Positions 16,376-19,428 of a stretch of 64,000 nt of DNA are shown one piece after another (positions within the stretch are counted from its first letter, which is position 1; every line of letters starts with the position of its first letter). A program made the translations under genes and the position numbers. Source of the DNA: Verrucomicrobiota bacterium (lineage in GTDB: Bacteria > Verrucomicrobiota > Verrucomicrobiia > Limisphaerales > PALSA-1396); assembly GCA_016200005.1 (NCBI GenBank), contig JACQFP010000033.1, positions 1 through 64,000 on the forward strand, in the 5' to 3' direction. The notes below the pieces were generated by a model. It was given only the letters and a program-made list of their open reading frames with translations, ran no database searches and was not told where the DNA came from.

Positions 16376-16497
16376 GTTGCCGAATTAATTTTCCGACTAC
16401 AAATACGCAGAACCCTCACCCGGTCTTCGACCACCCTCTCCCCATCGGATGGGGAGAGAAGAGGTGAGGGGCAATTCGGAAATTAATTCTGGCAAAC
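16376..16497. mobile_element. MITE-like element, second family (copy D)
   Basis: The ends are imperfect inverted repeats: GTTGCCGAATTAATTTTCC at 16376 and, on the other strand from 16497, GTTTGCCAGAATTAATTTCC. The 122-bp body holds the CCCTCTCCCC/GGGGAGAGAA hairpin and a block reading CCGGTCTTCGACCACCCT. A related block (CCGGCCTTCGACCACCCT) and related ends occur at 51781-52196. No obvious target duplication is left. It lies just upstream of larB and may carry its leader. Confidence 0.6.
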
Positions 16498-16553
16498 AGT
16501 ATATTCACTTTTTCCTACGTGACCGCACGCGACTTTCATGGCATCCTCGTCGC

Positions 16554-17315
16554 GTGACAATCACTGAGGCCACCAAGCTCTTGGAACTGTTTCGCACCGG
16601 CCGCGTCCGCCGCGAGAAGGTGTTGCGCGCCTTTCAACGGGCGCCGCTGGCCGACCTCGGTTTTGCCCAGGTGGACACGCACCGCGCGCTGCGAAAGGGT
16701 TTCCCGGAGGTCATTTTCGGCGCGGGCAAGACGCCGGCACAAGTGGTCAGAATCGCCGCCAGAATTTACGAACACGAACAGCGGTTGCTCGTGACGCGGA
16801 TCACTCCGGAGCACGCGCGGGCGCTACACAAAAAATTCAAGCGCACCGTGCATCACGAAATTCCCCGCTGCGTCACAATTGAAAGGAAGCCATTGCGGAA
16901 ACGCGCTGGAACGATTGCCGTTCTCTGCGCCGGCACGAGCGATTTGCCGGTCGCCGAGGAAGCGGCGGTCACGGCGGACATCATGGGCAATCGCGTGGAG
17001 CGGATTTACGATGTCGGCGTCGCCGGATTGCACAGGCTGTTGAGCCGACTGGAATTGATTCAACGTGCGAACGTGATCGTCGTCGTGGCAGGCATGGAAG
17101 GCGCGTTGCCGAGCGTGGTTGCCGGGCTGGTTTCAAAGCCGGTGATTGCGGTGCCGACGAGTGTCGGTTACGGCGCGAACTTCGGCGGCATCACGGCGCT
17201 GCTCGGCATGTTGACGAGTTGCGGGAGCGGCGTCACCGTAGTGAATATTGACAACGGCTTCGGCGCGGGGTATGCGGCGAGTCAGATCAACGCGCTTTGG
17301 AGCGGCGGTCTGTGA
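16554..17315 (+). CDS. larB: LarB, nickel-pincer cofactor carboxylase/hydrolase
   Basis: I start at GTG 16554, giving 253 residues; the frame continues upstream only into a repeat. LarB carboxylates nicotinic acid adenine dinucleotide and hydrolyses it to P2CMN, the first step toward the nickel-pincer nucleotide of lactate racemase-type enzymes. The PurE-like second half is clear: AVLCAGTSDLPVAEEAAVTA, VYDVGVAGLHRLL-type region, VVVAGMEGALPSVVAGLV and PTSVGYGANFGG with the final NIDNGFGAG. larC follows after one small gene. larA and larE are not in the window. Confidence 0.93.
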   Translation: MTITEATKLLELFRTGRVRREKVLRAFQRAPLADLGFAQVDTHRALRKGFPEVIFGAGKTPAQVVRIAARIYEHEQRLLVTRITPEHARALHKKFKRTVHHEIPRCVTIERKPLRKRAGTIAVLCAGTSDLPVAEEAAVTADIMGNRVERIYDVGVAGLHRLLSRLELIQRANVIVVVAGMEGALPSVVAGLVSKPVIAVPTSVGYGANFGGITALLGMLTSCGSGVTVVNIDNGFGAGYAASQINALWSGGL

Positions 17316-17375: not shown

Positions 17376-17789
17376 ATGAATCAACAACGCAAAAGGTGGT
17401 TGCGAGTGGCCGCATCTATCAATTGTTCGTTGTGGCTGCTTACAGCAACATGGGGCTTGGTGGACATAGAGCAAGCATTTAACCGAGAATTCGCTCGGTC
17501 AGAGGACCGGCGAGAAGCCACCAATCGAATAGCGGAGGTGACCCGAATTCACCAGGTCAATCTTCGCGATCCTTATGGTATGTTTGGCCCTTCTGGTACG
17601 CGAGGGCAACGAGTGCCCGTTGGGTGGTGGCGTTATCGAACAATGGGTATTCCTCTCGCACCGTTCTTGATCATGGACGAAGCAGGTTATCAGGTTGGGC
17701 AGTTAGATGGAGTAGGCGGCCGCAGAATTGTTTTTTGGTTTTTTGGCTGGAGTCGCGAATGGTGGATAAAGTACTACTGGCTTTCTTAG
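17376..17789 (+). CDS. Hypothetical membrane-anchored protein
   Basis: This 137-residue protein has one N-terminal hydrophobic segment (about 10-30) followed by a soluble part rich in Arg and Trp, ending FFGWSREWWIKYYWLS. I do not recognise a family. Its codon use is more AT-rich than larB and larC on either side (runs such as tttttggtttttt), which suggests recent arrival between them. It ends 16 bp before larC, and the larC ribosome site (AGGAG) overlaps its 3' end. Confidence 0.6.
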   Translation: MNQQRKRWLRVAASINCSLWLLTATWGLVDIEQAFNREFARSEDRREATNRIAEVTRIHQVNLRDPYGMFGPSGTRGQRVPVGWWRYRTMGIPLAPFLIMDEAGYQVGQLDGVGGRRIVFWFFGWSREWWIKYYWLS

Positions 17790-17805: not shown

Positions 17806-19428
17806 GTGAAAACACTTTATCTCGATATTTTCAGCGGCATCAGTGGGGACATGTTTCTGGGCGCGCTGATTGACCTTGGCGTCAATGTTCCTCAACTGGA
17901 GCGCGAGTTGGCCAAGCTGAAACTGGATGGCTACCATCTGCACGTCGCGCGAAAACAGAAAGCGAACATCGAAGGCATCAAGTTCGACGTGCACCTGGAA
18001 CACGAGTATGCCCACGGACACACGCATGAACACACGCACGCCGACGGCACAACTCACGCGCACCAGCACGACAATCACGACCATGACCACGAGCACAGCC
18101 ACTCGCACAGTCCCCATGGCGGCCCGCTCGTCAAAACGTCACCGGGCCAGATAGAGTTGAGCGTTTTTGAAACGAACGTTCCGCCACGTTTCCGACTTTA
18201 TTTCTACGATGCCAAGGGAAAGGCGGTGGCGCCGCCAACAGCCAGTAACGTCGGGTTGGAAACCATTCGTGACGGCCGAAAAAGGCAATCGTTCAAGTTC
18301 AAACGCCACGGTGATTACCTCGAAGCAACTGATGAACTGCCCGAGCCACACGAATTCACCGCGATCCTCAAGCTCAAGCGCGGCAGCCGGACGGAGACCC
18401 ACAAAACGCAGTTCATCGAAGATCATCATCATCACGAACACGAACACGGGCGAAACTTTGCCGAGATCAAGAAGCTGATTCTGTCCAGCGCCCTCTCGGA
18501 TTGGGTGAAACAGAAATCGATCGCTGTGTTTCATCGCGTGGCGGTGGCGGAAGGAAAGATTCACGGGATGTCGCCGGAGAACGTGCATTTCCATGAAGTC
18601 GGCGCGGTTGATTCGATTGTCGATATCGTCGGGGCGTGTGTTGCATTGGAACTGCTGGACAGACCGCGCGTTCTGGCGTCGCCGCTCGTCGAGGGCACGG
18701 GTTGGATCAATTGTGCGCATGGACGGTTTCCAATTCCCGCACCGGCCACACTGGCGATCCTTGGTGAGCGCGGCGTTCCGATTTCACAATGCGAGGAGCC
18801 GCATGAACTGGTCACGCCGACGGGCGCGGCGTTGCTCGCGGAATTTGTCGCACGTTTCGGCCCGATGGAAGGATTGACCGCGACGAAGATAGGTTTTGGC
18901 CTCGGGACGCGTGACAACCAGACACGACCCAATGTGCTGCGCGCGGTTCTTGGGGAAACGACTGCGACGAGCGGCGCTGCGCACGATTGGCAGACGGACA
19001 CCATCGCGGTTCTGGAAACGAACCTGGACGACATCAACGCCGAGTTGCTCGGCCATTTTGTGGAACAGGCGCTGGCGGCGGGCGCGCTGGATGCGTTTCA
19101 CACCCCGATCCAGATGAAGAAGAATCGGCCCGGCGTGCTGCTGACTGTTTTGTGCGCGGCAGCGGAGGCGGACAAATTCACCGAGTTGATGTTGCGCGAG
19201 ACGAGCGCGTTTGGCGTGCGCCGCACCATGGCGGAGCGGCGCAAATTGCAACGTGAGTTTGCGGAAGTCAAAACACCGTGGGGTAAAGTGACCGTCAAAC
19301 TCGGCAAGCTCGATGGAAAGGCAATCCAAGCGACGCCGGAATTTGAATCGTGCAAAAAACTGGCGGAGGAGGCTGGTGTTCCATTGAAGCAGATTTACGA
19401 AGCGGCAACCAAAGCGGTTAAACCTTGA
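17806..19428 (+). CDS. larC: LarC nickel-insertion protein with an inserted metal-transporter-like domain
   Basis: GTG 17806 gives 540 residues; usual LarC proteins are about 400-430. LarC inserts nickel into the pincer nucleotide (CTP-dependent in known cases). Core motifs are present: YLDIFSGISGDMFLGALIDLG at 5-25, FHEVGAVDSIVD after residue 255, and TPTGAALLAEF. Between residues 66 and 214 there is an insert in three parts: a His/Asp/Glu-rich stretch (66-104), a beta-rich domain of about 100 residues (105-205) with LSVFETNVPPRFRLYFYD and PHEFTAILKL, and a second His cluster (207-214). I recognise the middle part as the domain found in DmeF-like cation transporters and related nickel/cobalt systems. 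Confidence 0.92.
   Translation: MKTLYLDIFSGISGDMFLGALIDLGVNVPQLERELAKLKLDGYHLHVARKQKANIEGIKFDVHLEHEYAHGHTHEHTHADGTTHAHQHDNHDHDHEHSHSHSPHGGPLVKTSPGQIELSVFETNVPPRFRLYFYDAKGKAVAPPTASNVGLETIRDGRKRQSFKFKRHGDYLEATDELPEPHEFTAILKLKRGSRTETHKTQFIEDHHHHEHEHGRNFAEIKKLILSSALSDWVKQKSIAVFHRVAVAEGKIHGMSPENVHFHEVGAVDSIVDIVGACVALELLDRPRVLASPLVEGTGWINCAHGRFPIPAPATLAILGERGVPISQCEEPHELVTPTGAALLAEFVARFGPMEGLTATKIGFGLGTRDNQTRPNVLRAVLGETTATSGAAHDWQTDTIAVLETNLDDINAELLGHFVEQALAAGALDAFHTPIQMKKNRPGVLLTVLCAAAEADKFTELMLRETSAFGVRRTMAERRKLQREFAEVKTPWGKVTVKLGKLDGKAIQATPEFESCKKLAEEAGVPLKQIYEAATKAVKP

Follow-up and report, generated by a model that had tools for sequence, protein, structure and literature searches.

Background

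MrdH of Pseudomonas putida is reported to contribute to resistance against Ni, Cd and Zn and to be an RcnA-CzcB chimera (PMC3056050). The His loop of RcnA is predicted to be cytoplasmic, according to the accessible text of PMC11247825. LarC from other bacteria, as stated in the accessible text of PMC11796402, carries out CTP-dependent insertion of nickel into the pincer precursor. Here we report a domain related to one in MrdH/RcnA-type exporters, encoded in a 64,000-nucleotide stretch of verrucomicrobial DNA, which we refer to as the window. The host of the domain is a LarC; MrdH has the same domain, but MrdH is a membrane exporter whereas LarC is a soluble enzyme of cofactor biosynthesis. 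What is new here is the fusion itself and the recognition of the unnamed module that the proteins share. In a literature search that left most subscription journals outside its scope, no paper named the LarC fusion in its title or at the beginning of its abstract, and the accessible portions of PMC11796402, PMC11770544 and PMC7583248 make no mention of it.

The larC gene and its pathway company

The features of the locus, all on the forward strand, are as follows.

16449..17315, +, larB, upstream partner gene in the cofactor pathway (NF033503, 307 bits, cut-off 175)
17806..19428, +, larC, single-ORF nickel-pincer cofactor nickel insertase of 540 aa with a GTG start (PF01969, 468.3 bits)
17806..17994, +, LarC N-terminal core, residues 1-63, first PF01969 stretch (profile 1-62), ordered in the model
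17995..18111, +, His tract 1, residues 64-102, 15 His of 39, predicted disordered (residues 67-101 with pLDDT below 50)
18112..18426, +, inserted beta-sandwich, residues 103-207, homologous to the MrdH/RcnA loop, the DmeF loop and the CzcB N-terminal domain
18421..18450, +, His tract 2, residues 206-215, 6 His of 10, predicted disordered (residues 206-213 with pLDDT below 50)
18451..18951, +, rest of the LarC1 region, residues 216-382 (TIGR00299)
19003..19356, +, LarC2 domain, residues 400-517 (NF052512)

The encoded protein exceeded the curated cut-offs of PF01969 (Ni_insertion, in two stretches), TIGR00299 (LarC1, 204.8 bits) and NF052512 (LarC2, 150.7 bits), which places it among the LarC nickel insertases. 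Its pathway company is also present, with larB adjacent and homologues of larE (TIGR00268, 297.8 bits) and larA (PF09861, 217.9 bits, and another of 72.7 bits) elsewhere in the genome. The enzyme part is an ordinary LarC: like other LarC proteins it matches PF01969, has LarC1 and LarC2 in one ORF and is preceded by larB, and CTP-dependent nickel insertion is its predicted activity. No NicO or Cation_efflux domain was matched in LarC by Pfam, so it is not a membrane transporter itself; its sole hydrophobic stretch (residues 265-286) corresponds to a core helix in the model (266-283). Between larB and larC there is an ORF of 137 aa (window 17376-17789, +) with no Pfam match.

The larC of L. plantarum uses a frameshift. 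In the window's order we noticed two larC genes (G052:C197:3450-4863 and G181:C23:421278-422591) with PF01969 in adjacent pieces and different open frames.

A folded domain inside the His-rich loop

The PF01969 match is interrupted at LarC residues 64-215. An earlier note on this DNA, referring to window 18001-18450 (LarC residues 66-215), had proposed two His clusters flanking a beta-rich domain of about 100 residues, and this description agrees with both the residue counts and the predicted structure. The two tracts together have 21 His, with only 4 in the 103 residues between them (103-205), and AlphaFold2 predicted a beta-sandwich. Modelled alone with 27 homologues, the domain had a mean pLDDT of 86.8 and a pTM of 0.80; the model shows nine strands and lacks a long helix. 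When the whole LarC was modelled (23 sequences), pLDDT was 83-93 in the ten-residue blocks spanning residues 131-200 and 72, 86 and 63 in the three blocks of residues 101-130, with the motif loop 122-125 below 50. The pTM of this model was 0.52. We read this as a module folded on two flexible His-rich tethers, which in the model would have no fixed place on the LarC core. The domain is an Ig-like beta-sandwich of ~105 residues within the native His-rich loop of LarC. It carries the motif LSVFETNVPPRFRLYFYD at LarC residues 118-135, has no Cys or Met and has few His (5 in 105 residues).

The expectation of the earlier note that ordinary LarC has at most a short His-rich loop did not hold in the window's order. 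From the N-terminal motif to HFHE, ordinary LarC proteins of the order (28 full-length sequences) have 125-181 residues with 10-33 His, whereas the fusion proteins have 253-309 residues with 23-53 His. The loop of the ordinary proteins has no folded domain, in contrast to the fusions, which have one inside it. Since a long His-rich loop is already found at the same place in ordinary LarC, the module was put into a pre-existing loop, and it is the folded module, not the His clusters, that is new. In NicO proteins and in the DmeF described below, the domain likewise sits within a His-rich loop.

The domain gave no match to Pfam or NCBIfam, within LarC or within its other host proteins, and no relative with a solved structure was found among the PDB sequences; thus, no named family could be assigned to it. 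When the domain model was compared by VIA-align, the top structural neighbours included the copper-binding beta-sandwiches CrdA (Z 10.1, rmsd 2.9, 97 aligned), FetP (Z 10.0) and P19 (Z 8.5), yet with only 6-10% identity; a DUF4426 protein (Z 9.1) ranked between FetP and P19. Foldseek with the same model returned nothing at E 0.001 or better, its weak matches being mostly antibody-type sandwiches, so the likeness to copper-binding folds is suggestive only. A fold common to the domain and CrdA, FetP and P19 would show no function.

Relatives of the domain in metal exporters

A whole-genome search with the 105 residues alone revealed that a 379-aa protein of the same genome contains a second copy, with 57% identity. 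As the query has 5 His, the His tracts were not driving this match. The host is a NicO protein by Pfam and scores 377 bits with the model of the RcnA subfamily (cut-off 195), and its copy is located within a His-rich loop, as in LarC. The domain of LarC also showed 41% identity to MrdH over 95 residues and 48% identity over 91 residues to DmeF of plasmid pBAL398.3, a CDF exporter of Co and Ni whose copy is part of a His-rich loop flanked by predicted membrane segments. BLASTP scores of the domain against three transporter proteins were 73-113 bits, compared with at most 27.7 bits in 1000 shuffles. Against a CzcB-type profile, hhalign gave a probability of 99.0%. Homology over most of its length, together with the predicted fold, groups the domain with the modules of MrdH, DmeF and CzcB type, and the kinship with DmeF-like and nickel/cobalt transporters that had been suggested in the earlier note is real. 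A disordered linker was considered as well and is ruled out by the confident predicted fold, the order in the full-length model and the homology to transporter domains.

A domain match was found in 23 of 97 relatives, the window's genome counted in. The 56 distinct domain rows, which were typed by motifs (with six representative proteins, DmeF and MrdH typed by Pfam), comprised 31 NicO proteins, 12 LarC, 9 CzcB-type adaptors, 2 CDF proteins (L072 and L085) with the domain at the N-terminus, unlike its loop placement in DmeF, 1 DmeF loop and 1 row cut by a contig end. Among 72,556 plasmid records, 474 had a match, and among the 30 matches listed of these 474, all were annotated as RcnA, MrdH, DmeF or nickel/cobalt efflux except two unannotated ones. 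All the host proteins that could be typed were nickel, cobalt or heavy-metal proteins.

In the CzcB/IhpB-type RND adaptors, the N-terminal domain is a more distant homologue that carries the motifs GPHGG, VPP and EPHxF. Unlike the LarC copy, these periplasmic copies are not between two His tracts, and they form a separate clade (100/100) far from the rest of the domain tree. The accessible text of two adaptor reviews (PMC4446572, PMC8277102) does not describe this N-terminal domain.

Distribution and phylogeny of the fusion

LarC matches were detected in 247 of 293 genomes of the window's order, and LarC-type copies of the domain in 12 of 320 (family codes f1, f3, f4, f15, f18 and f45), so the fusion recurs in other genomes. 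Most LarC proteins of the order are without the domain, so nickel insertion as such does not require it. Several genomes had their LarC match in two pieces with the domain absent; to judge from the match coordinates, the gaps reflect contig ends or split reading frames more probably than inserts. One of the 12 LarC copies (G070; L004, also L060) is shifted in frame downstream of the domain, and is either a pseudogene or an assembly error.

Across the phylum, a set of 387 genomes gave 10 domain matches, one of which was LarC (the window's own) and the others NicO or CzcB-like; accordingly, no LarC fusion was found outside the order in this set. A contig scan with two short patterns taken from LarC copies retrieved 29 loci, of which ten were LarC, all with titles of Verrucomicrobia or a group within (partly the same assemblies as our genomes). 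Again, none of the 29 was a LarC fusion from outside the order, and with only two short LarC-derived patterns diverged fusions could be missed.

In the domain tree, the 12 LarC rows formed one clade (99/96). The group nearest to it consisted of the NicO domains of G000, G018 and G070, on a weak branch (86/10). In a tree of the LarC core, the fusions need four changes, and a single clade was not rejected (p-AU 0.199). The core tree had 39 rows, 11 of them fusions, after removal of duplicates and 2 short rows; the frame-shifted G070 copy was absent, and the ordinary rows were 28 of the thirty best-scoring LarC matches, not an even sample.

Possible roles of the inserted domain

A loop of 21 His around a module whose other hosts are metal export proteins would most simply be an arm for capture and hand-off. 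We lean, by a modest measure, towards a module from a NicO-type exporter that acts within the His loop of LarC as a cytosolic arm for nickel capture and hand-off. A single copying event may have brought the module from a NicO-type exporter into the loop. The flexible His tracts would collect Ni(II) and so buffer nickel in the cytosol, the tethered sandwich would either hold the ion or dock its donor, and the ion would then be passed to the site at which LarC would metallate the pincer cofactor in the CTP-dependent reaction. It is solely from the host proteins that we infer metal binding by the domain, and both the direction of nickel transfer and the origin from a NicO gene are likewise putative.

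The predicted compartment of the RcnA His loop, the cytoplasm, is that of LarC. CzcB adaptors reside in the periplasm, so the module is not specific to the cytosol, and the metals of MrdH include Cd and Zn, so it need not be specific to nickel; both points count against a capture arm. To these we add the few His and absent Cys and Met of the domain, the failure of sequence searches to find a relative with a solved structure, the many LarC proteins of the order that do without the domain, the weak branch to the presumed NicO donor, the core tree in which the fusions are not a single clade (though one clade is not rejected) and the frame-shifted G070 copy.

The strongest rival to the capture arm is a docking domain, in which the His tracts bind the metal and the sandwich binds a partner, either a further copy of the domain in a NicO or CDF transporter or a nickel chaperone, and thereby takes LarC to the source of nickel. 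The composition of the domain would suit docking, as would the conserved motifs FE..VPP.FR and EPHxF, which are common to proteins on both sides of the membrane. NicO copies occur beside the LarC copies in 3 of the 12 fusion genomes (G000, G018 and G070), but none was detected at E 1e-12 in the other 9, which indicates that a dedicated domain-to-domain pairing is not general, and no partner is known. We consider docking rather unlikely.

Perhaps the arm serves metal storage, protection or sensing, soaking up excess nickel or zinc or shielding LarC from wrong metals instead of supplying the catalytic reaction. The other typed hosts of the domain are all efflux or resistance proteins, as one would expect in this case; however, LarC is a biosynthetic enzyme encoded beside larB, and detoxification would not need such a host, making this role improbable.

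A tolerated insertion with no function, spread by recombination between His-coding tracts, is very improbable. The hosts do have His tracts at the insertion point in common, which could promote recombination, and the fusions are few. Nevertheless, selection on the domain is purifying, as it is on the enzyme core, with dN/dS of about 0.1 in the unsaturated comparisons (several of those with more distant genomes were saturated): between the window and G001 the value was 0.096 both for the domain and for LarC2, 0.082 for the LarC1 part and 0.109 for His tract 1. Moreover, nine LarC copies are identical to one another at 48 of the 105 positions, and ten positions, including E15, E20, P24, P25 and the EPHxF set, are invariant over 27 copies of all kinds. 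The chance of an assembly or binning chimera is negligible: all 29 records of the contig scan are metagenome-assembled genomes, but the same junctions recur across 12 genomes with six family codes, as well as in ten named records (partly the same assemblies), and in 9 of 10 fusion loci larB precedes larC on the same strand (at a distance of 1.7 kb in one).

A broader reading, to which we give slightly less than an even prospect, is that the unnamed Ig-like sandwich may be a portable unit for handling transition metals that has been placed repeatedly in cytosolic His-rich loops, namely those of the mutually unrelated nickel proteins RcnA/MrdH, DmeF and LarC. If so, exporters and a nickel insertase would have a nickel-capture part in common, and LarC would take nickel for cofactor synthesis through the recognition device of an exporter. 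A natural fusion of insertase and exporter domain offers a defined, excisable part for probing nickel delivery. The domain is also of interest by itself, being common to four otherwise unrelated metal protein families and modelled by neither Pfam nor NCBIfam.

Observations on individual NicO records

The records L070 and L075 carry the title Proteobacteria bacterium, and the sequences of their NicO proteins are exactly those found in G076 and G195, which are genomes of the window's order; thus, the two titles look mislabelled. Similarly, L074, titled Akkermansia muciniphila, encodes the same NicO protein as G552, which is a genome from the same class, and the isolate name of L074 suggests an environmental sample, so this label looks doubtful. 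An MrdH-like NicO exporter with the same domain (L002:1144-2283, G000:C21) is located directly downstream of an apparent partial gene for a CusA/CzcA-type RND pump.
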